DNA of 64,000 nt from Polychytrium aggregatum (lineage: Eukaryota; Chytridiomycota; Chytridiomycetes; Polychytriales). The stretch is from positions 46,659 through 110,658 of the forward strand of contig NW_026516337.1 in NCBI RefSeq assembly GCF_025602895.1, given 5' to 3'. The notes under the pieces were generated by a model. The model worked only from the letters and a program-made list of their open reading frames with translations, made no database searches and was not told where the DNA came from. Shown in pieces: positions 20,819 through 56,862 of the stretch. A program made the translations under genes and the position numbers. Position 1 is the first letter of the stretch. Every line of letters starts with the position of its first letter.

Positions 20819-20876
20819 CTGATTTGAATTGATCGATTCGATTGATCGATTTGATTTGATCGATTTGATTTGATTC
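20819..20876. repeat. GATTTGATC-rich block
   Basis: Overlapping GATTTGAT and ATCGATTTG words, partly palindromic (ATCGAT). A similar GATTT repeat occurs at 52735-52775. Confidence 0.7.
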
Positions 20877-22727: not shown

Positions 22728-23430
22728 CTGCAAGTCAGGCAGGGCTTGTCGTCAAAGAGGTTCTTTTGGATGGGAGCGCTTGGAGGCGGGAAGAGGCGCT
22801 GGTCAGGAAGATATGAGGACGGTTGCAAAAGAAGAAGAAAGTAGCCAGATGAAGGTGGCGGGGTTGTTGTTTCAAGCACAGGTAAGATTACAATTGAACA
22901 TGAAAATACAACAGGGGGGAGGACCTGTGAATGAAAACGACAGACGACAAAATGCCCAGAGCGGATCGGCCGAGGCAAGATGGACGAGGACGAAGGACAA
23001 CGGGCGAGGAAGAAGAGGCAGCCCAGAGCTGACATGCCTGCGAGAACAGCTGCGCTTGCACAGGACTGTTGCGTGCTGTGTTTTGCAGGCAGACAATAAC
23101 ACAGCACAGTACACCACAATGGCGTCGCCAAACCAAGAGGCGCGCTGGGACCGCGGTGCGGCAACAAGGACAGGCGCGACCAAGGTGCGGCGTGCGCGCT
23201 TGTGTCGCACGGGTTCAGATGTGCTGCGCATATGTGCCGGGAGGTCTATTCCAGCCGTCCTGGCTCTGATTCGGCTCTCGCCCTGCTCGCCCTGCTCGCC
23301 CTGCTCGCCCTGGCGGTCGGGGTGGGACTCGCAGCACTCTGGCAGGAAACCGCCGGCATGCTCATGGCGCTTGGCAATGGCGCTTGCCGATGGCTCGCAG
23401 GAACCATGCAGCCCGGACTCGGGCGTAGCC
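22728..23430. other. Spacer that should contain the KH-like gene's first exon and promoter
   Basis: About 700 bases between SPT8 (ends 23431) and the first identifiable exon of the KH-like gene. A 9-base unit CCCTGCTCG is repeated about three and a half times at 23281-23312. No exon could be fixed by similarity. Confidence 0.4.
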
Positions 23431-26400
23431 TCACTGTCGCTGCGGCTTCACATCGTAGAACAAACACATATTGGTTGAGACGCCGTCCCATCCTCGCGCG
23501 CCGGATGCGCTGATCAGATACTTTCTAGAGGCGTCGATATCTGGCGAAGGTGGCGCAACAAGCAGTATCAGTGTACAACCAGATGCACAGGCTGTCCGCT
23601 GGTCGCTCAGCTTGCAGTACTTACACAGACTCGAAAGCACCCCGCCATGATGCCCTGGCACGATCGTGAAGGGACACGCGCTATCGCCAAAGTCGAGCCT
23701 CCGGTTGCTCTGCGTCACCGGATTGGCGGCATTCGGGGTGGATGGAACCGACGAGTCGGCTGCTGTTGGCTTGGACTCTGATGCTTGCAGATCCCAAAGA
23801 CGGATGTTGTCGTATGAGGCACTGGGGACACGGGCAGAATGAGGTCTGTCAGCTCCATTGCACCGCCTTGATGACGCGAGGCCAATAGAAAGCCACTGTC
23901 GTCGATTCGGCGTTTGTGACTGCCACTTCGTTGAATAAACCGTTGATTGTTTCGCAGATTGAAGCAGCCTGGCCGAGCGCGGACCAGACCAGACCAGACC
24001 ACGCTCTGCAAGAAAGGCGGGGGACAAATACTTACCAAAGCAAGTGCCGATCGTTTGGCATAATATTCACCTGGCTTACGGCTCCAGAGTCCCGCGGCAG
24101 GCGAAGGGTTCGCAAAATCTTGCCCTCGGCAAAGTCGTACTCATCCACTGGCCAGGAAATGGGAAGCAAGGGCCGTCATAAGCACCGGGCAGATCCAGAT
24201 GGCTGGTCATATGATGCTAGCGCACTGGTCCGATGCGGCTGCTCGGTTGAGAATGGACAGGACACTGTCCAAAATCCGTCGTCGAGGCAGTTCGCAAGAC
24301 CGCAGCAATCTTCGCACCCAGCGACTACAATGCTCGCACCCAGCAGCAGCTTGTCCTTACCGGTGCCGTTTCTCCTCCCGCAGTAGATCCGCTTTCCATC
24401 GTTACTCCAGCAAGCCTGGAGGGAGCAATTGCCGCTTGTTGAGCGATTGTGCCATCAACCGACCTGCGATGTCTTCCAATCTCGAGAAACTCACCGACAG
24501 CGCCCATGGCGGCGACCCTTGAGGCAGGATCTTTCGGATCTGCGGCCGTCCTGGAACCCGCTCGTCGAATATGCCGATGCAGCCGTCAAACGACGTGCAC
24601 ATGAGAATGCTCTCGGTGCTTCGGCTGGGCAGGCCCGTGCCCGTGTTGGGAGTTGGCCGCAGGGATATCGACGTAATCTGGGAGGATGCTCCGGAGAACT
24701 CTCGAACAACCCTACCAACGTTGAGATCCCAGCGCTGCAGTATTGTTCCAGCAGTAGGACGGCGTGCCATGGAGAGGATTTCGATCGCATCAGCACTGAA
24801 GTCACATCCAGAACAATCACTCCGACACATTCGCATCGTGGTATGGCGGGCATCGCCAGACAGTACAGCGGGCACATATCTTGATTCTCACTCACCAGCA
24901 CACTCTTGTCCCACGAGCCACTGAACAGTCCCGTTTCATCTGGCGTGATTTTGAGGACTGATACCGAGTTTTTGTGGTGCTGAAGAGTGTGGAAGCACTG
25001 TCGGAGAGGGATCCGCGTCACTGAGCATACTGGCGCTCGAGGGCTGGATCGAGCTCAGCCTGTCGCTGCACCGCAGTAAAGTCGACTCACCGTCCCTTCG
25101 TCATGTCGTCCAGTCCACATGTTGATGGCTCCGGACTAGAGTTTTAGACACAGTTAAGGAGCGGCGCAGTGTTCGCTGCGGCCAAGAAATGCAGCAGGGC
25201 GGCAGCAGCCAAAGCACAAGCTTGTCCACTCAACGCACCTCACATCCGGTAACGACCCATGCTCCTTCCGAATGAACGTCGATGCTGTATACTGGTGAGA
25301 TGCGGTTCTCTGTCGGTGCCGAATCGGCGGCGTTCGGTCCTGTCTCACGATATGTGTGTTCAGCCAGCGAGCCAACTTGACGAGACCACAGCGCCAGGGA
25401 TAGCTTCATACGCAGTCGTATACTCACGCGGCAGCGTTTCCTCGTTTTCCCATGCTGAGATCAGCAGCCCTCCCTGGCGACGAGCGTGCGGCGAGGAGTC
25501 GTCAGCTTGGACGCGATCATTCGCAGTTGTTTGATAAAAAACGACTCGCAAGTCGTAGCGTTCCAACAAACGGGGTTCAGCCAAAAGAGCTTCGAACAGA
25601 CGAGCTTCTGCGGCTCGAAAGCGCGCCGTACCCGGATGATCGAATCGGCAAGTCCGTGGCGCTGGTTCAGCGGCAGAGGATAGTCACCGTTCATGGAAGG
25701 TACGAAATCAAATTTGCGGATGAAGCCGTCATCGCCCCCAGTGTAGACCCATCGCTGGCCGTTCCATCGAGGAGATATTCGAATGCGTGAGTATCGTCGT
25801 TGTGGCCGTCAGCGGTGTCTGCTCGATACTGTACTGCCCGATGCTGTTCTGCCTCGAGACGATGCGTCGGTGGTGTCCGACGAAGCGCTCCGCTTCCGGA
25901 CTATGTGGCTGCCGTATCGGCTGCATGGTATCCAGGCGATTGGATGGCTCTGGCTGTGGTCGTTTGTCATCTCTGCATTTGCTTGGATCTTTGCTCTCGC
26001 TTCAGCATGGCGAGCGCTTTGCAAGGACCCACCATGTTTCTCGTCGCTGCAACGCAGTACACACTGCAAGGGTGGCCAGCCGAGACCTGTGGGTGTGTTG
26101 ACCAGGCCGTCGTCTGTCAGCGACCACTTGATCGAGAACACCAGACTCGACTGCGTTTTCATGTCTGGCAGGAGTCTGCTCGCCGAATCGACCGGCTGGT
26201 ATTGGCAGGAGCCGTTGCGACCGCGATCATACGGGCTCCAAACGCTTTCATCCCGCAACATTACCACGGGCGTGACGGTATAGCAGATATCGTTGTCATG
26301 CAGAATGACTCCGTCGGTTTCTGGAGTCGACCGCATCGTTGATCCAGAACGAGGATCGCGGACGCAAAGGTCAGTAAAGCTAGCAAGAAACCCGGAGGAG

Positions 26401-26699
26401 CCTCTCCCGTGAACGTCTCCAGCGAGTGTTGAATCATCCTCTCAATGTCTTCTCCTCTAGATATCTTCTTGATATCTTCTTGATATCATCCTCTTGATAT
26501 CCGGACGCCCTTCTCCAGAGCACCCACCTCGGCTGACAGGGTTCAGATAGGTGTCGAGCTCCTCCTCGACAATCGCCGCGCCAGCCAAAGTCGCTGACGG
26601 ATTGCCTCCCGCATGGGCCGGCTGGCTCTCGGGCTGGGCAGGAGGGGTCTGTGCGGCGGGTGTGTCCTGCGGCCGCTGCTCAGGTGTGTCGACCTCCAT
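23431..26699 (-). CDS. SPT8: SPT8, WD40 subunit of the SAGA transcription coactivator
   Basis: SPT8 binds TBP within SAGA and is a hallmark of fungal SAGA. About a dozen short exons are recognisable in the family order. They include YTVTPV; GHPCSVYCVAATRNM (26086-26033); RWVYTGGDDGFIRKFDF with NQRHGLADSIIR (25754-25632); GGLLISAWENEETLP; RISPVYSIDVHSEGAWVVTG; SGAINMWTGRHDEGT; SGSWDKSVL; RWDLNVGRVVREFSG; ILMCTSFDGCIGIFDER; ACWSNDGKRIYCGRRNGT; EYDFAEGKILRTLRLPRDSG; NDRHLLCASYDNIRLWDLQ; FTIVPGHHGGVLSSLY; and the last exon, YLISASGARGWDGVSTN to a TGA at 23431. The acidic N-terminal exon starting MEVDTPEQRPQ at 26699 is inferred. Two joints (near 25411 and 25020-25090) are approximate. The long plus-strand frames here are shadows. 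Confidence 0.87.
26457..26505 (-). repeat. AAGAAGATATC repeat in the first SPT8 intron
   Basis: On the minus strand, ATATCAAGAAG-type units recur four times between the inferred first exon and the next exon of SPT8. The sequence contains the palindrome GATATC in each copy. Confidence 0.7.
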
Positions 26700-27019
26700 G
26701 CTCGGTGTGTCTGGTATCGTGGGGCCTTGGGACGATCTGGGCAGAGGGCCTGGGTCTGGCGGCCAGCCTCGGGGCAGGCGCACAACCCCCTGGCCGCAGG
26801 GTTAGGGCTGCGCCGAAGGACCGCCACCGCCGCGGCCCTGATTGGTGGATCTGGAGAAGGCCTGTGTCACACCGCCGTTTCCGGATTCGGCCTGCGCGCT
26901 TTTTGCGCTTGCTCGGTCTGTTCCTGCCCGAATGGCCACGAGCGATGCTGCTGGCCATCCGCACACCACCACTCCCCCTCATCTCGCTGCTTTCTCGAAC
27001 GCACAACCAGCACGGCGCC
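26700..27019. promoter_or_regulatory. Divergent promoter between SPT8 and peptidyl-tRNA hydrolase
   Basis: 320 bases between two inferred start codons on opposite strands. GC-rich, with no element that I can name. Confidence 0.45.
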
Positions 27020-28744
27020 ATGCAGGACCCGCAGACCCCGCAGATCGACTATGTCGTCGTCGGCCTCGGCAACACTGGCGAAGCGGCCGCTTCCTCCCGA
27101 CACAACGGTACCTCCCTGGTCCTGTCGTGCCTCGCTCTCGCACATCTCCAGTTTGTCGCCGCTAATCCATGTCCCTTCTTCCTTGGCCATCGCCATCGCC
27201 ATCGCCATCGCCATCGCCATCACCATCGCCATCGCCATCGCCATCGCCATCGCCATCGCCATCGCCATCAACGGCGACGTTGTCTTCATCCGCAGCCGGC
27301 TTTCTCTTCTGCGATTACCTCTCCAACTGCATCCACATGCAGCAGCATCTGCTGGCCACAGGCGGCAGCGTAGACAACCCGACCCTGCCAACCCACCCAC
27401 CACGCTATGTCCGCCGCAACGATCTTGGAGGTATTTCGCATCGGTCCGCTGCTCGCTGTCTCCTGTTGACTATCCGTTCTCTGGCACATGCATCGCCGCA
27501 TTCGTCATTTGTTCGGGCTCTGACCAGCAGCGACCGCCGCCTGTCCCTTTGACACTGTCGACCATCCTGCCCACCGGCCATCCGGACGATAGCCGACATC
27601 AATGACACCGTGTTCACAATTTTCCCTGGCGAGACTCTTGCAAGCCACTCCGATGTTGCTATCGCCAAGGCATCCAAGAAGCAGTCCGCCGAGCCAGTAG
27701 TATGTCGCTTGTTCCTGCAATGCCGCTGTCCCGTCGGCTGGAAGTCATGAAGCGGCAATGTCAGGCTACAGCCGTTCGGTCAAGCCCGGACAGTTCCGTC
27801 TGGCTTATCGGTCCTGCTGAATCGTCCAGCACCACTCGCATGTCTCACCGGACTTTCTCCTTCGTTTCCGCATGCATCGACTTGATATTGGCTCGATGTG
27901 CTCTGCAGTCGCGAACACTTCGTTTGCTCATCGTCAAGCCCATCTGGGGAATGAACGATTCAGGCGTCGCCGTGCGGAACGTGCTGCTGGCTTATAATAT
28001 TGCGAACCCGTCCAAGCAGCTCATCGTCGCCTTTGACGATCTCAACACCCTGCCGGGCTCGATCGCGATCCACAGTGAGTAACCATCCACCGATCCAGCC
28101 CGCACTTTCGGATCAGCCCTCACTCTTGCCTCTGATGGCACAGCACCGATGCACAGGCGACTCGGCCTGGCGTCTGTGCATTCCGCCAACATAGCAGTTA
28201 TGGTGCATGGAGCCCCTCCTGTCAGATGATATTTGGCTTGCGCATCGACCCCGTCCTCCATCCTCACCACCCTCGTCACTTCTCGTACAACACCCCTATT
28301 GTCATCATCGCAGCCGGAACAGATCTTGGAGCCATTCGCGGCCACAAGGGCGTCGAGTCTATTGTCCAGCACCTTGGAAACAGCGCCAGCGAGTTTATCC
28401 GATTCCGCCTTGGAATCGGCCGCCCGCACGGAGACACCAAGGCTCTCCAGTTCGTCGACGCTTCGTTCCAAAAGGAAAACCGCGAGCTGGATTTGTTCGG
28501 CTACGCCTTGGACCTGACCGCGCAAGCCCTGCAGTACTATTTTGCTTCCAACGGCGATTCCAAATCCACCAAAAAGAAGTTTGGCAAAAGCAAGAAGCTG
28601 CCCCTGAACAAGCTTCAGCAGGTGAGCGTCCAGATCGCACTGGCTCGCAGTCTTGTCGTCGTCCTCTATTCAATTAGTGCTGACTCGGCTCTGTATCTCC
28701 AGATGGAGTCGCTCTCTTTTCCGTTTGAGACGGTTGGTGTGTAG
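27020..28744 (+). CDS. PTH1: Peptidyl-tRNA hydrolase, Pth1 family
   Basis: Cleaves the ester bond of peptidyl-tRNA released by stalled ribosomes; in fungi the Pth1 type is often mitochondrial. Six exons (27020-27107, 27296-27430, 27593-27699, 27909-28074, 28314-28621, 28703-28744) join in phase to 281 residues. Catalytic landmarks are all present: VVGLGNTGEAAASSRHN supplies the Asn and His, KPIWGMNDSG corresponds to the KPxTFMNxSG substrate loop, AFDDLNTLPGSIAIH supplies the Asp, and RGHKGVESIVQHLG plus FRLGIGRP complete the fold. There is an insertion after the first helix (VDNPTLPTHPPRYVR) and a basic C-terminal extension (KSTKKKFGKSKKLP). No clear mitochondrial presequence is visible. Confidence 0.9.
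27183..27270 (+). repeat. CCATCG hexanucleotide microsatellite in PTH1 intron 1
   Basis: Fourteen or more copies of CCATCG (one interrupted by CAT) lie wholly within the first intron of the hydrolase gene, ending about 25 bases before the acceptor. It creates Met-Ala and Ser-Pro repeat ORFs on both strands. Confidence 0.88.
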
Positions 28745-29041
28745 ACGGTCTGCGGTACCGCGGTGTCGACTATATGCCCTGGTTTGCGCAAAGGCTTGCT
28801 CGGCCACACCAAACCTGTGCGGGTACGATGTGGTTGTCTGCCACTGCGTCCTTTCTTGATGGGTCTGCGCTCATCGGTCTGAGATGCGCGGCTCTTGAAT
28901 CTCGCCTTCTGCGCGATGCCATTCTTCTGCATCCTGGATCGAGCCATGCATTATATTGAACGCCTGTTGCGGGTATATCAACGACCAAGGGTATCTTGCG
29001 CGCAACCCAGCGGCAGCGCGAGGGGGGGGGAGACGGCGGAC
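28745..29041. other. Convergent 3' spacer between PTH1 and the 29042 gene
   Basis: About 300 bases carrying two 3' UTRs. An eight-G run lies near 29022-29030. Nothing else is seen. Confidence 0.35.
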
Positions 29042-30662
29042 TCAGTCGTCACCCAGGATAATGTAGTAAACCGTGGCAAAGGCTACCGACCCCGTCCCGA
29101 TACAAAGGGTTAGCAATATGCCTCAATCCAAGCCGATCGGAATGGGTTTGCCCTGGCTGGTGGCAAGTCGGGAAGAGGCGAGCCGAGAGCATGCTTACTG
29201 TATTTTCCTGCCATCATGCAGCTTCTCAGCTGAGAACAGAGCTTGAGGCGGGTGATCCATATCGCCACATGGCGTATTTTCCGCCGGAGTGACGATTCGT
29301 CTTCGAAGCTGACCATTTTCTTCTGGGACGGGCTGAGCGAGCAGGGCTGAGCACCGGAGCGTTTCAGCGCCGGCCTCTGAGGCGATGCCGATCCATCAGA
29401 GTCGGTGTTGGTGAGAGTTGTGAGCGTAAGATTCAGCGTTGTCTCGCTGCTGTTTGCAGGAAGTGCTGTTGGCAGAGAGCCGACGAGCTGCAGAGCAGCA
29501 GACGGGATGTGGACGGTTTTCGTTGTGAATGTACTATGGGCGGAAAGGCTATTAGCCAGAGCCAAGGTGCATGCTACATCGTGGCGAACAATTTCCTGGC
29601 AGCAGGAAACCTACATGCGTTCGATGTACGCAACAGCCATCACAGGTACTATCGTTTTCTGAATAGGTAAGTAATACCAAAGGGGTGTCTCATAAGCCAG
29701 TAACGAGGCCAAAGCAGAACGTCGTTGGCGCTGGCGGCGGCATCGAATATATAGTTGGGAGGGAACCCAACGAGGACGCCTGCCGACCCGGGCAACAATC
29801 CGTTTGAATCCGTTGAGATTGGCGGTCCCAAGTGCTGCACGCGACCCGGTTTTGATGAGGCAACTCGACGACGGCTTCTTGTCTTGTGTGTTGCTTGCTG
29901 GGCGAGCCTCCGTCCACACCCGGCAACGGATAACGGCGGCATTGTGCCGCTGGCACAGGAGTACATCTGCCTCGTACAAATGGTGTGTATCGATGTTTCT
30001 CGCAGTTGTAAATAGCGGAGGCCCCAGCCACTCGCTATGGCAAGAAGCAGAGCCCCAATCATCCGGCCAGGACCAGATATCGATCGGGTAAACATTGCGA
30101 GACGATGACTCTTGGGACCGGACCCGCTGTTCGCAAGCCGAGACATTGGCTCGGAGATTGAATCTCCTTCAAACCCCTGCGGCAAGCCCGCCAGGGGGTG
30201 CCCATTCTGCGCTGTGGCCCAATCCGCAAATGTTTTGCTTCTTGGTCGTTTGTTGATCCACTGATATGCGCCAATGACAGCACTGCCTCCGGAGTAACCC
30301 TGACTCGCCGTACGCCACCAAACAATCAGAGGAGACGGGCCGGAGAAATGGTGAGTAAGCCTTGAGGCTTGCCTCACTCTGCCTCCTCAGGACCACGACC
30401 AACACCGGAGTGCCTTCACATGCAGCGCACAGCGTGTTGACAAAAGTGTGACGGCATTTGGTTTGGAAAAAATCCCAGAGGGGTTGGATCACATTGTACT
30501 CGGCCAACAACGGCCAAGTGGGGTTGGATCATCTCCGTGGATCCGAGGCAGCCGAGGCGGCCGATCCGCTCCATTCACACTACACATCAATGTGGGCCCG
30601 CTGTAGACCGCCGCTACTGCTGGCGGCCGGTGCAGCGCTTGCCTTGAGCACCGCCATATTGG
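29042..30662 (-). CDS. Unrecognised protein with hydrophobic C-terminal tail (5' exons approximate)
   Basis: The last three exons are phase-consistent: one ending at 29615 (ALASLLAYETPLWYYLPIQ, then VAYIER), 29533-29199 (TFTTKTVHIPSAALQLVG, a Ser/Thr/Asn-rich stretch, SFEDESSLRRKIRHVAIWI) and 29121-29042. The final exon encodes a membrane span that runs to the end of the protein, ILLTLCIGTGSVAFATVYYI then LGDD. The hydrophobic tail suggests a membrane protein with a short exposed C terminus, possibly tail-anchored. Upstream exons between 29650 and 30662 are plausible (for example LYEADVLLCQRHNAAVIRC) but I could not order them. A possible start is ATG 30658 (MAVLKASAAP). The family is not recognised, and the 5' boundary is a guess. 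Confidence 0.42.
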
Positions 30663-30790
30663 ATGCACGATATCGATTTCCACTGGCGATGCTCGACTTG
30701 CGCGCCGCTGAGCAAATCCCCGGCGGCATTGAGCTCGCTGTTCTGGAAGTTGATTGGAGAGTCAGCTATTCTAGGGCCATATGCGTGTAT

Positions 30791-33700
30791 TCACTGGCCA
30801 AGAAGCGGATGGCGGCTGGCTACGGCTCCAGGATGCCCTGCTTCGCTTTGTGAACGCTGTGATTTTTTCTTGCCCTTCTTTTTCAGCTTTTTGGATCGGC
30901 CGATACTGCCGCTGGAGCCGTGATGCTTCAGGCGCTTGGGCTTTGGAGGCGGTCCCACAATCAGTTTCCGTGCAACCTCGCCAAAATCCAGCCCGAGTTG
31001 CGGTGGGCATTTCTCGCCGGCCGCAAGGACACCTTCGTTTGATCCTGTTTCATTGTCGTCCGAGTCACTTTGGAACGACCCGGGACTGGCCACGATTGCC
31101 AGGAGGTCGGGACACAGCAGCTCGGTCGAGAACGCCTTGGCTTGGCCCGATAACCTGGCCACAGGCTTTCTCACGGGTACACTACCAAAGGCATCAAGCG
31201 CACCCATCGAGACTGGGAAGACCCCGACGGCCCCGGTGGCTTCTTCCTCGTTCCAGGACGAGAACTGGTCAAGCTCGAATGAGCTTATGTTTGCGAGCTC
31301 CGGAGACTGGAATACCTTCTCCACAGAGGGCTCGCCCGTGCTTCCCAGTTTCAGCGACGATCGCCGGTCTTTGCGCTTACGGTCCTTGGATTTGGCTTTC
31401 TTCTTCCTCTCCTTGCCTTCTCCAGGACCAGGACCAGGGCCTGAGCCCGACCCTGAGCCCGACCCTGGTCCTGAGCCAGATCCTGAGCCAGATCCTGAGC
31501 CAGATGCAACAGGCGCCGCTCCACTTTCTCTCGGCTTCTTGCCCTCCGCGCAGGCAGTGGGCATTGCTGTCTGTCCATTGGCGAGCCTCTTCCGGCGTTG
31601 CTTTTTGATACATTCTTTCTTGGGTTTGCTCGGCGAATCATTCGCCACTGCTTCGGCGGGAGCATCTGACTCTTCCGAGGAACGCAACTTTTGCGTGGGC
31701 ACAATCTCATAATTCTCGTACTCATCGTCGCAGTCTCCATCCGGCTCGGGATAGACATAGTCCACGAGGTGACCTGGGGCAGCCTTGATAGGCTCGTATG
31801 CTCTGCGCACAGAGAAGACGCTGATATGGCCTGGCTCCTTCAGCGAGTGGGTGTAGTTGCCAGCTCTCGCGAGATTCGGCTTCTTGTAGCTCTTCGATCC
31901 TGATCTGGTTTTCGTTTCAACCTGATTCGATGACCGCAGCACAGATAGACTCCGCTTGTTTTCAGGAGACCGGAGGAGCGGCGAGTCGATGGCGGGTATG
32001 TCCGAGGCTGAGCGGAAAACCTCGATGTTCTCAGAGATCTCGATTGAGCCACTGTTGTTCAGGGTCCGGCCAGTCATTTTTTTGTCGGGCCCTTCCTCCT
32101 CTGTCTCGATCTCGATATCGGCAGTGTCGGAAATGTCCCTGATGACAAGACCTTCTGAGGAGACGTGAGTGGTTTCAAGTGTTTCGCCCGCCGGATGCGG
32201 TCTCTCCGGCACTGGCCCGACCGGCTCGTGAATCGCCGAAATATCGTCCTCCACGGTCTCGCTCGAGTCGAGATTCAGGAGTACCCGGCGAGGGCCAATC
32301 TTGGAGCGGTCAAAGCTCTCGCCTTTGGTTAAATGTGCTGGTGGCGGGCACGGCTCCTTAGGGGTGCTTCTCTCGGCGGAGCTATGCCTCTGGTGCAGTG
32401 CAGAGAACGAAATCTGCAGAATCTTGGCGCTGATGTCCAAGATACTCATCCGCACAGGCTCTGCAGACGACGACCGTGGTGAGAGATTGTTCAGGGAAGA
32501 TGCAGAGGCGGGCCGATTGCATGTTGTGCAGCTGCTGGTACTGGAAAGACCACTTCTCAGCGGCTGTACCGTCGGATCCTTGTCGGACGAGCTCGGATCT
32601 GTCTCAGAGTCTTTCCGGCAACCCCAAGGCTCATACTCGTCCTTGTCGATGTCGTCGTGGATGGGATCAAGATCGATCAAGGTCTCGTTCCTGTCTGGAT
32701 CAGTGTTCCCCTTCTTGACAGCGCCGACAAGTGCCGGCTTCTTGCCCTTGACTTTCTTGGGCCGGATTTTGGTCTTGCGGCGCACCTCCTTTCGCGGCGG
32801 AGTATCGGCCTCGCTTCCCGATCGCTCACCTGCTGAATCGGCCGGCCCCGTACCAGGATTCACAAAGTTGCTATTCCGTCCGGCCTTCTCGAGTTTGCTG
32901 GTGAGTTTTTGCTTGAGCGAGAACAGCTCACGCCGATAGGCCCTCTTTGTGTGCGATGCACGGGTGGCCTTGGTTGGCTTTTTATCGCTCCGCTTCTGTA
33001 TCACTATCGCTTTGGGCTGCTCGACAGAGTCGCTGTCGTCCGATCGCTCTTTATCGGGCTCTGGTGCTAAGCTCGACGAGTCTGGCGTCGAAGGAGGGCT
33101 CTCTTGGGATGGTAGTGGAGTGTCGCTGCCGATGGTAGGATCGCTTGCCAAGGACGAGTTCTTGCGAATCAGCACTTTATTGGGAGTGATTGTCGTGGTT
33201 GGCTGAGGGGCACCCGATGTCGATCCCTTGACAGAATCTTGCGACAAAAGACAGGTTAGATATTGCGCCGTAAGGATAGTAGCGACGCAAGCAGTGCCAG
33301 AAGAGGCAATAATGACCGCTCTGAGCATTGTGCGGTGTATGCGAGTCCTCCCTGTCGTACCCCGACAGGCATCGATGGCCTGGCTCGGCGCTATAATCCC
33401 AAGCGTCCCAGATCGACAGAAGTTACGTCGCCAAGGACTGTTGCAGCACATACCTCCATCACCGCTTTGGGTCATCGACCCCTCTTTGGGCTGGCACTTG
33501 AGTTTGCGCTTTCTTTCCTTCCGCTCCCACAGGATCGTGAGCATCTGCAGCCGATCAATCTCGGCTATTCTTTGAAGAAAGGGGTCAGAGGATGTTGTCA
33601 GGACAGAGTAGTACGAGGTGCCGAACGAACACTGATTGCTGTTGCCGATATTTAGGGAGGCAAAGGGATCGCTGAACGGATATGCCGCTGGCCGCTTCCC

Positions 33701-35304
33701 GCGAACCAGCGAGGTGGCCAGACCGGTCCGAGAGCTCCGCGTTGTTGTCTGGGAAGTGGCTGTGTTATCTTCGGCCGACGCATCCAGTTTCGCTCCCATG
33801 GTTTCGGACGATGTGTCCGCGCTCGCCCTGGACACCCCGGACTCGACTTTCAGCAGGAGACGGCTCTCGTCCTTGGCAATGGCCTCCTTGGTGACCGCCC
33901 TTCCGGTGATGCTAGCAAGGAACGAGGTACCAGCGTGAATCCCAGACACTGGATCGGACATAACCTCCTCAAACTGGATGTATCACCAATCATGCTCTCC
34001 ACAACGATGACTTTGGTAACGACCTTACCACGCTGCGTCAAAGGCGCTCCGGAATGAGATCTGTCCCTTCTGAGCCAGGGCGGTCCGAGAATCGAGCCTT
34101 TCCGCATCCTCAATGTCGTCCAGCACGCGCGGCTTGGCCGCCCTGAGTAAGCATAGCAATGTTCCGGAGAGGGCAAGTTAGACTGCCAAGCTCTAGTCAA
34201 GAGGAGCTGCGTACCAACGCTTGCTCCACACATGTGTGTCGAATATTGTGCAATCCAGCCCAAGCAGTCGTACCCGGATCGAGGACGGTTTTTGAGTTTC
34301 TTTTTCTTTGCCGAGGCGCATATTCGGATTCGTCGCTCACAGGGCTCGTCCAAGAACGGTGCAAAATTAAATATTTTGGAAGGCTGAATCGTTTTGGAGC
34401 TGAACTCCAACTCCGTATCAGAGAACGAGGCCGATGTATCCTGATGCTTGAGGCGCCGTCTAACCTCGCTGACCAGAGCTTTAGCCGCAGTTGCGGCCTG
34501 CGCATCGGTGGCCAGAGTTGGTGCTGGCTTGCGGCTTGATTGCCGCTCGACTACAGCTTTGCTTTCGTTCGATGGACTCGTCTTTGAAGCTTGAGATCTT
34601 GAAAGTCCGGCGGGTTTGCCGATCTTCACGGCGCTTGTTTCGCCACACTCGCCACGCACAGCATCTGCATCGGCTTGTGACTGCTCTTGGGGTCCACCAG
34701 CGGCGCATATCGCCGCTCGGGTCAAGAGCCGTTCCGAATTGACAGATGGCGGACAATCTACCGACGAAGGGCGAGAGATCGTTTTCGGGTCGTCGCAGTT
34801 GCTGGCGGTTTGCGATGTCTGCTCCAGCTTGTCACTCGGCTGACTTGGCTCGGGAAAGTGGTCGATCTTCCCGACATACTTTTGGCACAAGGAGGGCGCG
34901 GTATGTCGACGGCTCTGGTTTAAGGGATCATAGATAAGCTCCATGGACTGGTCCAGCGATCGATAGAGGTGAAAGCGGCTCCGACGGACTTTCTTTCCAG
35001 AGTCGGATGAAGTCGACAACAGCGAATCGCTCGAGATTTTATCGGGCAAGATCGATCTCTCCCTGCTGGTGGACGACCGACGGCTGTCACTCGAGCCCTC
35101 TGCGATTCGGCCACTGCTGGAGTATGTAGATGGACGCTTTGGTCTGTCGCCGGGCTCGCCAGGCTGTGAGCTCATCGACGCAAACAGGCTGCGTGTACTC
35201 TGGCTGAGTTTAAGGGCTCGGTTCAGAACGACATCGCTGGTGCTCGGGTTCTTCCGAAAGGGCACTCCTCGTTTGGGCGTGGATGGAGGTTGATATGGAG
35301 ACAT
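30791..35304 (-). CDS. 1,363-residue intrinsically disordered basic/acidic protein
   Basis: Four exons (35304-34232, 34142-34029, 33911-33454, 33237-30791) join in phase to 4,092 bases. The start MSPYQPPSTPKRGVPFRK at 35304 is the first in-frame Met; an upstream exon is possible. Ser, Lys, Glu and Pro dominate. Recognisable pieces are a short helix SDPFLQRIAEIDRLQMLTIL followed by KERKRKLK, a Lys/Arg-rich helix (RAYRRELFSLKQKLTSKLEK), several basic clusters such as KKQRRKRLANG and KSKDRKRKDRRS, acidic patches such as DCDDEYENYE, a Gly-Ser-Pro repeat (31430-31510) and a terminal KKLKKKGKKKSQRSQ. The composition suggests a nuclear or cytoskeletal scaffold. No enzyme fold is visible and I do not recognise a family. 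It lies directly downstream of the kinase/CAP-Gly gene, in the same direction. Confidence 0.68.
31430..31512 (-). repeat. Coding repeat for Gly-Ser / Gly-Pro dipeptides
   Basis: Within the last exon of the disordered protein, TCAGGATCTGGC-like and GGGTCAGGCTCA-like units recur on the minus strand, giving about 16 Gly-Ser or Gly-Pro dipeptides, a flexible linker before a strongly basic region. Confidence 0.75.
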
Positions 35305-36420: not shown

Positions 36421-39400
36421 CTATACAGCGACGGCTTTCGACTGTGCAGGCAGCATGTCGCTGTTCTCGGCTCGCTTGGAGTTGCGGTGAGACTGAAGCC
36501 GCAGAATTCCACGGAAGCGTGGACACACACACGTTATAGCGAGAGAAATGGCGGGCCTGCGTCAGTGCTTAGATCAGGTTAAAGTGCTGGATTATGCCGC
36601 GCGCTTACCCTCATGGTCGTGCTGTTCCGGACTGGAATGACTTTGTCCAGCTTGACAAACAGTCCGTGGTTCTCTTCGCAGGTAAAGTATCGCTTTCCAC
36701 GGACTATGCCGTCGTGCTTGCCCACTAAGGAATCGTTGGGGAAAGGACAAGTGTGCATGGGATCAGCAACTGCTATGCAGCGAGGACACTGACACTTTGC
36801 TGAGGAATAGCCAGCAGCGCGCCAGCAAAAACTTACATGGCCGGTCAAGCTTGATGCCGCACCAGAGTCCGGCCTCAGGCGCAGGATCAAAGATTCCCAG
36901 ATACTTGAGCATGCCTGATGAATGGGGTGCATGCCAAAGGATTAGTGTCAAAGGGTACGTGACAAAGGATGAACACCGAGGTGTGGAGCTGTAGCGTCAA
37001 GTCATAGTTGGCTCCGCTGATCCGCCGATTGACTGTTGAATTGGCCAGTGTCCGCTGGGCGTTCAGCCCCCCTCTTATAATGGCAGAGATACAAGTTGCC
37101 CCCGGCTTACCAAGACATTTTTCGTCATTGATCATGACACAGACTCGGTCCCCGCACTTGATATCGATCTTTTGTTGAGCCGCGTGAATCATAGAGTGCT
37201 CGAGCTCTTCCTCTCGATCGGCGTGGGTTGGTCGAACGATCGGAGCCAGTTTGTGCGGCAGAGCCGGAAGTGGCTGGCCGCCTGGCCCCTGCTTCTGCAA
37301 AGACTCCCTGCTACCCGGCACTTGGTCTGAGGGCGGTGTTGGGATACGGTTGTAGGTCTCCAATGGGGCGTGGGATGTCATCGGCTTGTTTGCGCGACCC
37401 TTGCGGACATATCCAGAGGGCAGAGGATGGGAGGAGGATGGCGCAGTCTTGGGGCGAGCCGGAGGCACTGCAACAGGAGCGGCCAAGACAGATGAGCAAC
37501 GAAACACGCCAAGATCGACTGCAAAGGGTGCAAACGCACTGCAATCTACTCACGATGAGCTGATGAATCCGGTCCACTGCCCCACCACCATCTGTTTCCG
37601 CTGTCGGGATGGTTTCCAGTCGGGGGCGGAGGATTCAGCGCAAAGTAATCGACCGATCGTGGGGGCAGATTGCCGATGATGCCGATCGGGGGTTTGCGGG
37701 CCGATGTGCTATACGGCGTCCGGGGCAAATACGGGAAGTACTTTGCCTGAATGCGGAAATTGTACGGCACGATGCGCAAACAGGGGGTGTCAGCGAGGCG
37801 CACGAACAGGCATTTGCGGAATCGCGTGGACCAGACTGGCAAGCCGTTGGAGAGTTTCTGCAGCGACGACACTTACCTCGATGAGCGGATCGGCGAGTGA
37901 GTTGCGCTGAAATTTGAGTCGTCGGATTTCTCGCCGTAGCTTTGCAACCAGGATTTGATATGCCTGAGCGCAATGTCGACAAGTCAGCTCGCATTCCACC
38001 GCATTCCACCGCATTCCACCGCATCGGCCACCACTGCGATCGCCAGCTGAATGCGGCACTACCTTCTTTTGCCGATCAAGCAGTATGCGCATGTTCTTGT
38101 CCAGAATATCCTTGCCTGTCCTTTCGGTTTCATGAATATGCTGTCGATCGGCGCCGGTTCCAAAGACGGGGGGTCAGAATCAGTAGTTCGCAGGTTCATT
38201 GCGTACGATGACGCCCTTACCTCGACAAGTTGATGCTCCCGCTCCTTCGAATCGTCAAGCGCCACGTCTCGACCGCCAATCTCGGATTTGAGCACACTGA
38301 TTTCCCGCCGCAAGCTTGACACAAGGCCAACATAGTCGACATCGCCCTTGTTCTTCTTATTTCTGGAATCGGCGGCCTGGGGATTGGTGTTTGAGCACAG
38401 CATGAGAGGTTGGTCTGTCAGGAACCGCTGGGGCAGCATGTTCGCGGACGAACATACCTCGTAAGAGTTTGATGCAGAGAACATCGGTGGATCCGCTTGC
38501 TTTATCGATTGAGATGAGCGTGTGACCGCATCGCCGTGCGACAGACTCTCACGTTGTGATGGCACGCCTTTGTAAGATCCCTTCTCGCTTGGTCTGTCCT
38601 CGGCACCGGTGGCGGCTGATTCGGTGTGCTCGCTGCTGTGGGTGACTTTCGCGACACTGGCCGATGCAGAGAGACGATTTCGACTGCTACGCACGGAGCT
38701 CGGTTTGGACTTTGGAGGCGTCGGGGCTTTTTGTTCGAGAGGCCGCACTTGCTCCGCCTCTGGCGCCGGTGCTCGAGATGTCTCTTGTTCTGGCTCGAGT
38801 GCGTATTCATCGGCATATCCTCCGACCTGACCCGAGGCTTCTGGCTCGGCCGTGGGAACATGTGAGGCAGTGGGTGCTGCTTCTTCGGTGGCATAGACTT
38901 GGGCTGTGGCCGGCTCGTGATCCGAGGTGTCAGGCGGGAGATCAAAGTCGCTGAAGCCGGCAGAGTAGCTGCTCTCATCCTTCTCCGTGGCCTCTGGATG
39001 GACGTTGGTGGTTTCATCGGTGTACTGGTTGGCAGCCTCTGGGACACCGGCTTCTTCTTCCATTGGAGGAACGGTGAGTGGCTCGGCGCCTCGATCGGCA
39101 ACAGGGTAATCATCAAAGTCGTCAAAGTTGGTCGCATAGTCCTCCTTTCCTTCCTCGGCCGCCGACTCGTCTCCCTTCTGGGCGACCAAATCCGGCTGCG
39201 CGCTGGGAGGCAAGCTCTCTATGGAAGCGTTGGCGAGCTGAGCGACCTCGGCTGGTGGCGCCTCAAACTCTTCTTCTTGTCCATAGAGGGCATCGGTTGC
39301 AGCGCTTTCCTCACGGTCTTGATCGGCGATAGCCTCCGTTGCGAGCTCTTTCTGAGCAGAGTCGATGATCTGAATGGCCATTTCGCTTGCAAGCTCTGAG

Positions 39401-42400
39401 TAATCTGCTACGGATCGGGCGTCGGATGCTGTAGATCATGCCAAACGCACATGTCAGTACCCTGATCTACACGCCAGCATCCACAAGCATCAACTGGTCC
39501 ATCCAAATCTATCAACCCAACCCGCCCACCGATTCCATCTATGAAACCCATCCACCGTCCCCACCAAGCCACACGAGTTTTCAAATCCAGGGCAACGTCC
39601 GCAAACAAATACAACGACTATTTTCTCGGCATGACGACTATCAAAAGACACTCTGCGATGAATTGCGTTGTGGTGATATGATTCCATACTGTCTTGGGGC
39701 GTCGGCTCAGTGACATCCGGATGAACGACTTTGGTGCGCTCGTCATCGACCTCGACTTTGTCAAGCTCATTAACCTCTTCTGCATATTCTCCATATCCAT
39801 CCGACTCATCCAGTTGCGCGCTTTCTTGAGTCGCGTGGCTCTCTTGTGCTAATTCCGGGGCGATTTCCTGCTCCAGTTCGTTGAGATAGTCATATGCAGC
39901 TGTATCTTGCTGCGTATGTGCCCCCTCGTCACGAGCCACCTCAGCCTCTGTTGCAGCTGCGTCTTCGTGGACATTCTCGTTGCTCTGAAGGATGTCATCA
40001 AACTCCTCCAGCCCATATTCCTGCGCAGTCTGCCCAGTCTGCAAGTTGTCTTCGACGGTGGGGTACGCTGGCTGTTCTGCATCCAATGGCTGCAGATCTT
40101 GCGCCTGGGGCTCCTCGGCAAGTTCATGAGGCTTCTCGGAGTGTTCTGCATAATCGTGGATGCTGTGTACTGCATGTCCTTCATGTTCTTGGAGTCCGTC
40201 CACTACACCGGCAAGCTCCTCAACTTCATGTGCAGCACCACCGATAGCGGCGGTGTCACTGTCGATCCCCATCGCCTCCAGGTCGAACTCATCCAAAGCT
40301 GAGTTTTCTTGTCCAGTCCGGGGCTGTGTCGCCTCGGACTCTGCCTGATTGGCTATCGGCTCACTCGAAACAAAGTGCTCCTCAAGATCGCTTGAACTTG
40401 GCTTTTGATCCACGCTTGTTGGCTCCCGATCTTCTTTGGTGGTCGGTGCCACTGAGCTGTCAGCTTGAGTTTCGGCTGCAGCGTCAGCCAGATTCGCCTC
40501 TGCAAACTCTTCGTCGCCATACTGGTCGTTTTCAGCCCCTCTCTGTTCACGATCGACATTGTCCTCTCCAGATACCAGCTCTGAAGTCGACTGAGTTTGC
40601 TGTGCCTCAACGTCCGCGATCAGTGCGTCGAGTTCGTCTTGGCTTGTATGCTCCTCCTTCACTTCAGACCGCGGCTCGAGAGACAGGGCTTCGTCACGGG
40701 TATTACCTGCTGTGTCTTTTTCCGTCGGTACTACTTGTCATTCGGGTATAGAGATGGAGATGCAGATGCAAAGCCGTGGTGGTGAGGATCTGCCAAGGAT
40801 TTGGCTCTCATATCCAGCCCTCTGCACGAGGCAAATGCGTCCGCTCCGAGGCGGGGTGAAAAGTCCATAGACAAGGTCATCCATGCCGCATACCTGCAAG
40901 CTCTGGCTCCTTGCTTAGCGGTGCATCAGTAAAAACACTCCTGGATTGGGCGTAGACCTCCTCAATAGGCGGTATTGATGAGATCTGCAGAAGTGCAATT
41001 ATTGCAAATGTTGAGCACGACAGATCCGAGACATCGTCACTAAATCGCCGCGAAGAGCGATTTCCATTGTGAAGTGGATGGGAGCCATAACTGACCTTGA
41101 CAGCTTTGCCTTGGCTCTCGTAGTAGTCAATCACCGGCATGCTTTGGCTCTCAAAGGTGGCAAATCGCTTTCGAATCACATCGATGTTGTCGTCGTCCCG
41201 CCCGCTGGTCTTTCCACGCTCCAGCAGGCGCTGTTCGAGTATGTCCAAGGTGCAGTGGTAGAACAAAGCCTTCCTGCAGGGACCGATCTATGCGGGCACA
41301 TTCGGTGTTAGTTTGAGTGCATGACATTGCCATGTTGCACCCAGTCTAAAGGAATCCGCGCACCCATCATATCGATAACAGCAGTGACGAATCAATCTTC
41401 GGAATCGAAAATGTCGGATGATCCCCCTCGTCAACGAGGCAACGGCTGAAAATCCATCTCCAAAACAATCGACCTCGGCTCGCTGTCTCGCGCTCAGTGA
41501 CGTGCTCATACCGTCCGTTCAAACTCGTGGGCCTGGTCCAGCGCACGAGGGAATCCGTCTTGCAGTGACAATGTGAGAAATTTGACATGAGCAATGGATC
41601 GACACAGCACAAGTGGGAGAGCAATGGGGCGACCTGGCACGACATAGTGGCCCCATACGCTTACCGATCAGGAATCCCGAGGCATCGCGGTGAGACTCCA
41701 TGGCTTTTCTCAGAAGCCCGATCGTGATTTCCTGACCAGCGGATGGATGATTAGTCAACAAAATCCACCAAAAATGGCGATGTGAGCACACAACAGCCAA
41801 CCTGCCTGCCGCCAGACTCACCATGGGCACAAGCTTGCCCTCTTTCATTAACGCAGAGCACATCTCGCCAACTTCAGATCCGGTGTTGACCTCGTTGCGG
41901 AGCAAATCGCCGGCGCTGAGATGCACAAGGTTGAATTCTTGGGCCAGTCGAGTACATTGTGTGCCCTTGCCTGATCCAGGCCCCCCTGTTGCAGCACACA
42001 ATTTAATGCATTTTATGAACGTTAGTTGAAGGAAAGTAGACCACAAGCTCAACAGCTGTTGCGTTCTGGTGTGATTCAAACAGCCATTGGCATCCCCGAG
42101 CGCAAGTGCTGCTCGTACCCAAAACAAAGACGACATTCGGATGATTGAGAGGACCGTCTGAGAAGTGGAAGCAGGGCAGGTTAGCATGTGCCTTCCGATC
42201 ATAAAAGTTATATCAACGGAATCGAGAGTGATTCTCGACTTACTGAGGGCGATAATCTCATTGGGACGTGAGCTGTGGGCATGGTGACTTTCGTGCTTCG
42301 TTTCTTGCATGGGCTCGGCTTGAGATTCTGACGCTGGCTCTTGAGCTTGGTCTTCAGTCGGCCCGATGGCTGCTAAACTGACACCCACGCTCTTTGGAAG

Positions 42401-45306
42401 CGGCACACTTCGTGCTCGCTCGAATACTTGTGACTCTCGGAGTTCCAATGGTGGCTCGGCGGTCGATTCGACAGGGGCGGCAGATTCTTCAGGCTGGGCA
42501 TAAGGAAAAGTATCAAGCTCGCGAGCTTTGGAGTCTGAGGCAGTGCTTTGATCCAGACTTGCACGGCTCGGTCTCATAGACATCAGGCTGGCGCCAGTGC
42601 TGTAAGGCAACGGCACTTCTGCAGCACGGTCCAGTGAAAGAGAGCCGCGGGAACCGGTGCCCTCTTTTTCGGGTGCTGGCGCATCTGCTGCTGCTTCATA
42701 GGCCTCATTCTCGTATCCGTCGGCTTTTGGAGCTGCATCTTCGCCACCGGAAGCGTCTTCGAACTTGGCCTCATCCTCGTACTGCGCCGTTGTGTCAGTC
42801 GCGGATTGCTCCAGCTCGGCCGCTGCGTTGGTGACATCTGTGTCAATAGGTTCAGGTTCGACATTAGTATCGGTCTCTGCATTGAGCTCTCTCAGGCTGA
42901 TGCTCTGACTTGTGGGTTGAGGTGCATGATCTGCTGCGTCCAGGACCCGGGACTCTCGATCAGCCTGAAGCTCTAGTGCCTCGGCTGTGGCCTCGTCGGT
43001 CTGATGCTGCTGTAGCTGAGGCTCAATTGCAGTCTCTTCGTTTTGGCCCTCTGCATCGATCTCGGCCTGAGGAGAAACGCCCTCCGCCGCAGGCACTTCC
43101 ATGGCCTCGTCTGGAGCCCGAGTGTCGGTGGCTCCAGCTCCCTCCTCATATGATGAATCGAGCGCGTTGAGGCTGTTGCCTCTGCTTTGAGGCAGGGGAA
43201 TCTCGGATGCATGATTCAGCCCTACAGAGGATACCGAAACTCGTGCTGCCTCGGCTTCGACGCCCGCTGTCTCTGGGGCGGCCTCGGCTTCGGCTTCGAC
43301 TTTGGCAGGAAGGTCGGAACCGGCCGACTCAAAATCGTCAATTTGGTCTGCTGAGTAGCTGGCATAGGCTTCAGTGGGCGCCGCCTCGACGAGTGCCCCT
43401 TCACCGTGCGCATCACCCGCGGAGATAACAGGCTGGGAGCCTGAATGCTCGAGCTGGTTGAAACTGCTGGCTCGGCTCTCGGGCAAGGGCTGCTGACGTG
43501 CCTCCTCGAGTGTCAGCGAGCTTTCCGCACGCCGGTGCTCCTGGTGAGATTGTGACTGCTGGGGCGGAGGTTGCTGACCCACCGGCAGTGCCTCTTCCGG
43601 CTCTGCTGGCTTCTGGTCATTGCCCTGGGACCCTTCGTAATTCTCGTTATTGCCCAGATCATTATCGGTTGGTGGCGCCACATCCTGCTGAGGCACTTCA
43701 TCCTCTTGGGTCGCTCTAGATGCTGCTGCTGTCTCGCTGGCAGGCTCAGCGTCCGGAGCTGCTGACTGAGCCTCCCCATCATCGACATTGCTGCTGGGCT
43801 CATGCTCTGCAGACTGCTCAGTCTGGGTAGATTCCAGATAGCTGCTGCCCGGGCCTATCATGTCAGCCCCGGCTGGTGCCTCGTTATCATGGCTGGCGGA
43901 CTCGTTAATGAGTCCACCAAGCGAGTTGAGGCTATCACCACGACTGGCGGGAAGAGGGATCTCTGCGGCTGCGCCGAGGACCTGCGAGTCTCTCGTTGTC
44001 AAGTCCGCCGCGACGGCGGTATCTGCAGCCCGCTCGAGCTGCTCCGGCTGTAGAGCCGGTTCTATAGTGTCTGTACCTTGTGGTATCTCTTGCGTGGTTT
44101 CTTGGTCGACTGCGTCCGCTGCTTGTGCTTCAGTACCCACAAACTCATTGCCGGGTTCCGTCTCTGGAGGGGGAGCGTCTCCTTGCTCTGCAGGTATGGC
44201 ATCGTCGGTAGATACTGCAGCCTCGCCAGGTGCTGATTCCGTGGCGCCTTCATCCAGGTGCTCTGCAGCGACTTCTGGTGATGGCTGAGTCGGTATATCT
44301 GGACAAGAACAGGGCATCGAGTAAGTACAGTGGCTCGGTCATGTGTGTTAGTCTATGGACACATGCATTCGAAACGGTGCTGACGATACTCCACGGCCGA
44401 CTGCCACACCCCAGGATCCCGCTGTTTCCAAGTGGGACATGCTATCCGGGCTGATGATCATCTCGGTGCATCAGCAGCAGAAAGTGTCCTACACGCAGTC
44501 ATCAATTCGCCATCGCGGCTGTCCACGTTTGTCCTGGGTTCCTGCACCTGGCCGCCATCCATGGCGGCGTCATATGCTTGACTCTTATCCGCAATAGAAA
44601 CCTCGCTCTCAAACTCGTCGTCGTAGCTGTAGGCCTGCCCATCCACGTTCTTGGTCGTCTGCGACTCCTCTCGACTCCTTGTCTCCGATGGCCGATGCTC
44701 TTCTACAGGGACGCCATCGCCCTGGCTGCCAGAGCCCATGATAGGCTCGGGTGATTTGTACTCCTCTGACTGCTGTAACTCCTGCTGTTGCTCTTGTTGT
44801 TCCTGCTGTCCTTCCTGCTGTTGTACTTGTTCCTGCTGCTGTTCTTGTCGCTGATCCTCCATGTTTCCATTGGCTGACTCTGCCATTTGCCCCAGGTCAT
44901 CTTGAGAGTATCCAACAGTACCGCCGCTTTGTGGTGCGGCTGAGACATGAGACTCTTCTGTTGCTGGGGATTGGCTAATATGACTCTCGGAGGCTATTCG
45001 AGATCCCGTCTGGTGTCGTTGCTGTTGTGTCTCATGCTCGGCTTGATTTGATTCAACTGCTCTATATGTGTCGCTTGTATTCGCATCGGCAGTGGCGTCA
45101 TCCGCCTCGCCAGCGACGCTATCTGGGCTATATGTATTTGGCGGATCGACTGAAGACGCTGGTTCGTCGACCTCCGCAGAGACCATACCTTCGGTGGCGG
45201 CAACGACATCAGGAGGAGGGGATGGAACCTCACTATCGGGAGGCGCGGACGGGTGCACCTCGGCCGACTCGGGCTCAATGGTTGGTGCTTGCTCCTGCGG
45301 GTCCAT
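36421..45306 (-). CDS. Giant adenylate-kinase / CAP-Gly fusion protein (2,219 residues, 18 exons)
   Basis: Exons: 45306-44493, 44298-42244, 42157-42119, 41985-41822, 41731-41665, 41558-41512, 41287-41096, 40984-40894, 40709-39690, 39428-38458, 38376-38221, 38110-38063, 37963-37877, 37857-37554, 37467-37111, 36914-36837, 36724-36609, 36474-36421. Every junction keeps phase and the sum is 6,660 bases. Residues 1-956 are acidic, Gln/Glu/Ala-rich, with six PLPxSxGxSL repeats. Residues about 957-1150 are a complete short-LID nucleoside monophosphate kinase: GGPGSGKGTQ P-loop, LSAGDLLRNE, IDGFPRALDQ, ERGKTSGRDDDN. A second acidic arm, a coiled coil (about 1828-1917), a conserved-looking Pro/aromatic block (FALNPPPPTG, RWWWGSGPDS) and a CAP-Gly domain (about 2118-2200: CGDRVCVM, GLWCGIKLDRP, GKHDG, GLFVKLDKV) follow. 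Inferred role: nucleotide interconversion (ATP/AMP or UMP/CMP) tethered to microtubules or the flagellum. Confidence 0.85.
37992..38026 (-). repeat. Intronic 10-base repeat GCATTCCACC
   Basis: Three copies in tandem inside the intron between exons 12 and 13 of the kinase/CAP-Gly gene (intron 38062-37964). Confidence 0.75.
42360..43966 (-). repeat. Six-copy PLPxSxGxSL peptide repeat in the N-terminal arm
   Basis: In exon 2 the motif recurs at about residues 382, 537, 632, 722, 826 and 899: EIPLPASRGDSLNSLGGL, QPLPESRASSFNQLEHS, EIPLPQSRGNSLNALDSS, APQPTSQSISLRELN, EVPLPYSTGASLMSM and SVPLPKSVGVSLAAIG. Each is preceded by a Ser-x-Val/Leu and Ala-rich lead-in. Spacing is irregular (70-155 residues), so this is a dispersed linear motif rather than a solenoid. 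Confidence 0.85.
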
Positions 45307-56452: not shown

Positions 56453-56794
56453 AAGGCGACGGGATGGGCACGGGGTTCCCGCAGACTGGCCAGAGCGACG
56501 AGGGGCGAGCGAGCCAGGGCCTTATTTTCCCCCTTGCGCGGGTGCGTGGGACGCACAGCCGCGCGGCGCGCCGGCGTGCGGATGTGCGCGGCGGCGTGTC
56601 TGTGTGTGGAGTGCTGTTGTGTGTGTGGGGTGCTGGTGCTGTTGCTGTTGCTGTTGTGCGCGCCGCGTATCAGTGCGGGCCGTGTGTGCGTGTGTGGATG
56701 CTGGTCGCTGCTGAGCGGGACTGCGCTGGACTGTGCCGGACTGTACCGCTGGCCAGCAGCCACAACGACTGCCATCCGCATTGCCCTCATGCGA

Positions 56795-56862
56795 TTCAAC
56801 ACTTGCCATTCAACACTTGCCATTCAACACTTGCCATTCAACACTTGCCATTCAACACTTGC
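56795..56862 (+). repeat. 15-base tandem repeat ATTCAACACTTGCC
   Basis: Five copies of ATTCAACACTTGCC(A) with almost no divergence, the first at about 56795. Confidence 0.85.

Follow-up and report, generated by a model that had tools for sequence, protein, structure and literature searches.

We describe a gene that appears to fuse a nucleotide kinase to a CAP-Gly domain, encoded on the minus strand of the window, by which we mean the whole 64,000-nucleotide stretch of DNA analysed here (part of contig C41, in an assembly of 64.7 Mb and 418 contigs). The gene runs from 45306 to 36421 and was modelled with 17 exons and 2,225 residues, all junctions being in phase (Table 1). It is well supported as a model and would place both domains on a single transcript; we are confident, short of certainty, that all of 36421-45306 is a single gene. 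For the whole account, a fused microtubule-associated NMP kinase with an acidic arm whose kinase cassette was gained by exon shuffling, our confidence is moderate. The initial annotation had put a kinase and a CAP-Gly domain in the same gene, and profile searches agree, with matches to PF00406 (7.6e-48) and PF01302 (2.6e-22) that both lie on the minus strand. Its start and stop codons also stand, and its 18 exons and 2,219 residues have given way to the numbers above; as it had claimed, the introns have GT..AG ends (16 of 16), and the reading frame stays open to a single terminal stop.

Table 1. Exons of the kinase/CAP-Gly gene and extent of the kinase cassette, in window coordinates.
Feature	Position	Strand	Content and remarks
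Exon 1	44493..45306	(-)	start codon 45306; acidic; 3' end uncertain, 44493 or 44602
Exon 2	42244..44298	(-)	acidic; six copies of a 28-residue motif; 5' end 44298 or 44284
Exon 3	42119..42157	(-)	39 nt, GPLNHPNVVFVLG; VVFVLG, first kinase strand; phase 1-1
Exon 4	41822..41985	(-)	Walker A GGPGSGKGT and NMP-binding SAGDLLR
Exon 5	41665..41731	(-)	kinase
Exon 6	41512..41558	(-)	kinase, DGFPR..DQ
Exon 7	41096..41287	(-)	kinase, short LID RGKTSGRDDDN
Exon 8	40894..40984	(-)	kinase end and linker
Kinase cassette (exons 3-8)	40894..42157	(-)	600 coding nt; phase 1 at both ends; omission preserves the frame
Exon 9	39690..40733	(-)	acidic; first in-frame Met is residue 1311, ~154 codons in
Exon 10	38221..39404	(-)	acidic, then start of coiled coil
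Exon 11	38063..38140	(-)	coiled coil; placed manually, absent from ab initio and homology-bonus runs
Exon 12	37877..37963	(-)	coiled coil; 5' end manual (finder: 37906); poorest coding score
Exon 13	37554..37746	(-)	Pro-rich
Exon 14	37111..37467	(-)	Pro-rich, then start of CAP-Gly
Exon 15	36837..36914	(-)	CAP-Gly core
Exon 16	36609..36724	(-)	CAP-Gly GKHDG and C-terminal half; 5' end by homology (finder: 36769)
Exon 17	36421..36492	(-)	short tail and stop codon

The model derives from a gene finder that was self-trained on 181 kb of the genome without homology input, the target gene being inside the training set. The splice consensus that it learned (AAG/GTAAGT, CAG) is sensible, and its ab initio run returned a single minus-strand gene of 16 exons with the same ends. 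Exon 3, only 39 nt long, was missed in that run and some kinase acceptors were wrongly placed; a run that rewarded homology in the kinase exons restored both. Five spots were set manually, namely the joining of exon 1, the exon 1/2 junction, exon 11, exon 12 and the start of exon 16. The finder had split exon 1 (45189/44957), which we rejected because the frame is uninterrupted there, and the exon 1/2 junction has two options (44493/44298 or 44602/44284), the choice between which shifts the protein length by about 40 residues. Placement of exons 11 and 12 was guided by the continuity of the coiled coil. The acceptor at 36724, which scores below the listing level, was chosen for exon 16 from the CAP-Gly alignment, as it yields LDRPLGKHDG against LDEPLGKNDG in Restin; the finder's own acceptor at 36769 adds residues ahead of GKHDG and was dropped after alignment to CLIP-170. 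The weak splice scores at exon 11 and at the 5' ends of exons 12 and 16, all of them manual placements, count against the model.

When the target gene was excluded from training, the model frame outscored the other two sense frames in 16 of the 17 exons (exon 12 fails) and all five other frames in 15, and all three sense frames were negative in every one of the 16 introns. The per-base coding scores are barely above zero in exons 1, 2 and 9, which are long and acidic, so support there comes mainly from the contrast between frames. With the same exclusion we varied gene cost and intron cost over 24 settings, 12 of them ab initio and 12 with a homology bonus for kinase and CAP-Gly. A single gene ending at 36421 and 45306 was returned by 22 of the 24, its exon number ranging from 13 to 20; in two of the 12 ab initio settings the locus was instead divided within the kinase domain, which speaks against a single gene, and a boundary between kinase and CAP-Gly was drawn by none of the 24. 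Upstream of exon 3 the kinase frame contains no ATG before it meets a stop at 42215, so the kinase lacks a start codon of its own. We rejected the idea of an independent kinase gene nested in this one, since no ATG lies ahead of the P-loop and the first Met comes after it. Exon 9 begins 160 nt past the kinase and is free of Met for about 154 codons, and it therefore requires an upstream exon. On the other side, a stop lies 14 nt beyond the exon 8 donor and would be read if that intron were retained.

The kinase domain is intact, as had been claimed, and the label of adenylate-kinase type needs adjusting. The spliced domain exceeds the curated cut-off of the UMP-CMP kinase family (TIGR01359, 215.7 bits against 207.6) and falls below that of adenylate kinase isoenzyme 1 (TIGR01360, 197.7 bits against 284.1); on these profiles it is better described as a member of the UMP-CMP kinase family. 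It is identical at 97 of 184 positions to the uridylate kinase 1uky, which we take to be yeast Ura6, and at 84 of 182 to the UMP/CMP kinase 1qf9, presumably that of Dictyostelium. The P-loop and the short LID are present, and in the alignment to 1qf9 the fused kinase keeps K19, R42, R93, R131, R137 and R148 (6 of 6), residues that we take to be catalytic. It thus resembles the Ura6/UMP-CMP kinases in its whole domain, short LID, SAGDLLR and catalytic K and R, and differs from them in sitting within a much larger protein. At the position of 1qf9 Asn97 the fused kinase has Gln, the same as 1uky, so use of AMP would be expected. Ura6 phosphorylates AMP, CMP and UMP, according to the abstract of PMC13397275, and a Ura6-like domain would therefore be expected to accept a broad range of NMPs, AMP included. 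Since a separate Ura6-like gene exists on contig C301, the fused kinase is an extra copy and not the sole one. This gene (L027, C301:355986-359264) encodes a UMP-CMP kinase with an N-terminal extension that by eye looks mitochondrial- or membrane-targeting-like.

At the other end of the protein, the spliced C-terminus matches CAP_GLY with 78.9 bits against a cut-off of 26.5 and covers profile positions 2-65 of 65, in line with the claim of a complete C-terminal domain. It matches 38 PDB sequences, with Restin (CLIP-170) and CLIP-115 at the top, and has GKHDG where GKNDG is expected, a single substitution that counts against our reading. The alpha-tubulin of this organism, identified by eye, ends in EEY, which is the CAP-Gly target motif. 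CLIP-170 has two N-terminal CAP-Gly domains and is not known to carry a kinase. The protein described here is like CLIP-170 and CLIP-115 in its complete CAP-Gly profile, W-C-G and GKxDG; unlike them, it has a single CAP-Gly, C-terminal and with GKHDG, in place of an N-terminal tandem. No second CAP_GLY was found on C41 or in the ORFs scanned. The assembly has about six CAP-Gly loci, and only that on C41 and its counterpart on contig C190 have an ADK match on the same contig. Searches with both halves of the protein returned, beyond the gene and its haplotype copy, kinase or CAP-Gly stretches only.

Much of the remaining protein is acidic, and the same acidic style does flank the kinase on both sides: D+E make up 20.9% and 25.2% and K+R 4.5% and 5.2%, with a net charge of -157 over residues 1-955 and -124 over residues 1146-1760. 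A coiled coil and then a Pro-rich stretch (20% Pro, K+R 11%, D+E 7%) precede the CAP-Gly domain, and the coiled-coil region gave four Pfam matches, all below cut-off. Classical MAPs combine an acidic projection, a Pro-rich part and C-terminal binding, and the layout of this protein resembles theirs. Exon 2 carries, between 42362 and 43999 (minus strand), six spaced copies of the 28-residue motif RxSxVLxxAxExPLPxSRGxSLNxL. Its core P[L/Q]PxSxxxS[L/F], a pattern derived from these very copies, occurs six times in exon 2 against a mean of 0.0006 in 5,000 shuffles and has zero copies after the kinase; the repeated motif is perhaps a docking or phosphorylation site. No Pfam match to a RIIa or DPY30 docking domain was found in the nine ORFs and three spliced segments scanned, and the viral contigs, scanned with the C-terminal 360 residues and six peptide patterns, gave no match. 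Aromatic-acidic motifs of the DDFE/DEFD type, a pattern picked after viewing the sequence, occur mainly in exons 9 and 10, with seven in residues 1151-1800 (0.7 in shuffles) and two in residues 1-950 (0.45 expected). The intron between exons 11 and 12 contains, at 37990-38024, a 10-bp tandem repeat, CGCATTCCAC, in 3.5 copies.

The nearest relative found for the fused kinase is domain 2 of a six-kinase gene (L031, approximately C361:50268-58134), which in our model, some of its junctions being rough, encodes six tandem UMP-CMP/adenylate kinase domains. Domain 2 and the fused kinase are identical at 141 of 200 positions, a relation absent from the initial annotation. Identity to the other five domains, whose rows were assembled from tblastn fragments, is 52-65%, and the Ura6-like gene matches at 96 of 175 positions. 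They share GPLNHPNV ahead of the domain and five introns of matching phase, at 5.33, 60, 82.33, 98 and 162 counted from V(V/I)FVLG. The domain 2 splice sites were picked among GT/AG sites guided by similarity to the fused kinase, so this agreement is not wholly independent, and the positions were taken manually from the third solution, without the two-residue insert of the first. Of these five positions, one (98) recurs exactly in the Ura6-like gene, whose model is unrefined; the intron comparison covers domain 2 and the Ura6-like gene, and some of the other five domains probably share several introns. A tree of 13 rows pairs the fused kinase with domain 2 at 90/87, a moderate support, and in one of 11 rows it groups with array domains 2-5 (93/99), no single partner standing out; no branch of either tree reaches the tool's mark for strong support. 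Contigs C259 and C121 have domain runs similar to the six-kinase gene.

These computations show that, at the level of sequence, the fused kinase cassette is kin to the six-kinase gene. We rejected a retrocopy origin because the five introns are kept. Between the fused kinase and domain 2, dN is 0.206 (NG86), dS is saturated and could not be computed, and 37% of third codon positions agree, so the protein has been preserved over a long period. The cassette comprises 600 nt, is phase 1 at both ends and can be removed in frame, since deleting exons 3-8 in silico leaves an open protein of 2,025 residues. Because of these three properties we read the kinase module as having been exon-shuffled, into a phase-1 intron, into an acidic, coiled-coil, CAP-Gly protein, a direction of transfer that we infer.

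The gene is present twice in the assembly. Many domain matches are paired across two contigs, and a 20-kb stretch of C190 is 99.8% identical to the window, which suggests that both haplotypes are present in the assembly. C190 has the same gene, with nine SNVs and no indels across it, and a misassembly is unlikely because the two contigs agree. Six of the nine SNVs alter a residue and three are silent, including the sole SNV in the kinase, numbers too few for a selection test; with six of nine altering a residue, the acidic parts are without clear constraint.

Elsewhere in the window, a search against Rfam at the gathering threshold gave no match over its whole length. We also note a predicted threonyl-tRNA synthetase-like gene at 900-5832 (minus strand; tRNA_SAD, tRNA-synt_2b, HGTP_anticodon), a single-exon hexapeptide protein of the maltose-acetyltransferase type at 7550-8128 (minus strand; Mac, Hexapep) and, at 56698-63692 (plus strand), a predicted gene with an APPL-family BAR domain and C-terminal ankyrin repeats (three of its 12 exons scanned). 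A large predicted gene of 19 exons at 17960-33961 (minus strand) may be more than one gene; its five scanned exons had no Pfam match above cut-off.

The weakest link of the gene model is exon 13/14, because a split there costs 14.3 nats, 12 of which are the assumed gene cost. This is the best-scoring of the splits tried at 60-nt steps, and it would divide the locus into two neighbouring genes on one strand: exons 1-13, encoding an acidic protein with the kinase and closing at the stop at 37546, and a short gene for a small CAP-Gly protein that begins at the ATG at 37381. The fusion would then be an artefact of the gene model. A stop does come soon past the exon 13 donor, an ATG does lie within exon 14, and ahead of that ATG the coding score of exon 14 tells little either way, at 0.029 in the model frame and 0.053 in another. 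Such neighbours would, however, be about 165 nt apart, whereas the nine same-strand gaps predicted by the same gene finder in the sampled contigs measure 251-4,501 nt. Moreover, the donor (4.9) and the acceptor (3.9) score acceptably and join in phase, the Pro-rich composition continues over exons 13 and 14 (20% Pro in residues 1961-2110) and this split was made by none of the 24 settings; we consider the pair of genes unlikely. A division at exon 9/10, with a first gene ending at the stop at 39490 and a second beginning at the ATG at 39381 and holding acidic, coiled-coil and CAP-Gly parts, draws on the exon 9 frame, which is open to 39490, on an early Met in exon 10 and on a best split in this stretch of -19.2 nats. 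Yet the 197 nt beyond the exon 9 donor look non-coding in that frame, with a score of -0.148 per base where exon 9 itself has 0.008, which is why the exon 9/10 link is good; the genes would lie about 108 nt apart, and again no setting of the 24 chose this split, which we regard as very improbable.

It could also be that the fusion is real and that its kinase does not work as an enzyme but has a structural or regulatory role, sensing nucleotides as part of a microtubule protein. Some axonemal adenylate-kinase domains have been seen in an open state, their cycling being unclear in the part of PMC11779644 that we cite, and the genome has other kinase domains. Against this, all the catalytic residues checked are kept in the fused kinase, and the comparison with the nearest relative gives a low dN alongside saturated synonymous change. 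We find such a non-enzymatic role rather unlikely and favour a working NMP kinase fused to a CAP-Gly domain.

Under the favoured reading of a working fused enzyme, the C-terminal CAP-Gly domain, with its Pro-rich flank and short coiled coil, would bind the EEY tails of alpha-tubulin or EB-type proteins. The approximately 1,760 N-terminal residues would make up a projection that is acidic and probably disordered and that holds mid-way an intact NMP kinase of the UMP-CMP type, brought by a phase 1-1 cassette of common descent with domain 2 that would have landed in a phase-1 intron. The kinase would interconvert NMP + ATP and NDP + ADP near microtubules and may so buffer nucleotides for the motors on them, possibly in the flagellum. 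Catalysis, microtubule binding and location are properties that we infer; the earlier suggestion of NMP-kinase anchoring on microtubules is a reasonable one, given the intact catalytic residues, the complete CAP-Gly domain and the EEY end of alpha-tubulin. Dynein heavy-chain domains gave 16 matches, 14 of them over cut-off, which collapse to ten or eleven distinct loci. Non-flagellated fungi typically have one dynein heavy chain; so many loci fit a flagellate, which this organism probably is. A flagellar location for the fusion protein is a plausible guess, and cytoplasmic, spindle and basal-body microtubules are equally possible. CAP-Gly/EEY binding would suit cytoplasmic or basal-body microtubules too. 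Axonemal tubulin is often detyrosinated, which counts against our reading.

Several NMP-kinase domains are tethered in cilia and flagella. AK8 docks via RIIa and AK7 and AK9 via DPY30 on radial spokes (PMC11779644), and CPC1 and FAP42 are subunits of central-apparatus projections (PMC9113940), as far as the cited parts of these papers go. Like AK7, AK8, AK9, CPC1/SPEF2 and FAP42, the protein described here has an NMP-kinase domain; in the same accounts, theirs is anchored on an axonemal structure by a non-catalytic region distinct from it. Unlike in those proteins, its putative tether is a CAP-Gly domain, a direct binder of tubulin tails. The trypanosome kinases ADKA and ADKB are likewise placed in the flagellum, in the paraflagellar rod, by a non-catalytic extension; theirs is an N-terminal targeting extension, and the passage of PMC3499766 cited here does not mention CAP-Gly. 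In the parts of PMC11779644, PMC9113940 and PMC3499766 cited here, CAP-Gly does not figure as a kinase tether. Among the papers searched, those naming both CAP-Gly and adenylate kinase are, by their titles and abstract openings, not about such a fusion; a relative that is unpublished, or known from annotation only, may exist. Within the genome, the six-kinase gene offers the closest comparison, with its domain 2 as nearest relative found and the introns shared in position and phase; it differs in having six kinase domains, an N-terminal region that is weakly Tex55/RIIa-like (E 0.01 and 0.09, below cut-off) and, in a profile search of contig C361, no CAP_GLY match.

It is tempting to speculate that a microtubule protein acquired a working, frame-neutral kinase cassette, related to one domain of a multi-kinase gene that is possibly flagellar, and that splicing out exons 3-8 toggles the enzyme on the microtubule, an idea that we put forward tentatively, at somewhat less than even confidence. 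Skipping these exons leaves a kinase-free protein in frame, and therefore the cell could add or remove the enzyme by splicing. The locus also offers a readable case of domain shuffling, with the candidate relative, the intron phases and the target intron all in a single genome. The tethering of adenylate kinases in cilia is under active study, and a CAP-Gly tether would be a different solution from RIIa/DPY30 helices or central-pair projections to the balancing of nucleotides along microtubules. If transcripts confirm the fusion, it would represent a new mode of anchoring an energy-balancing enzyme on microtubules.
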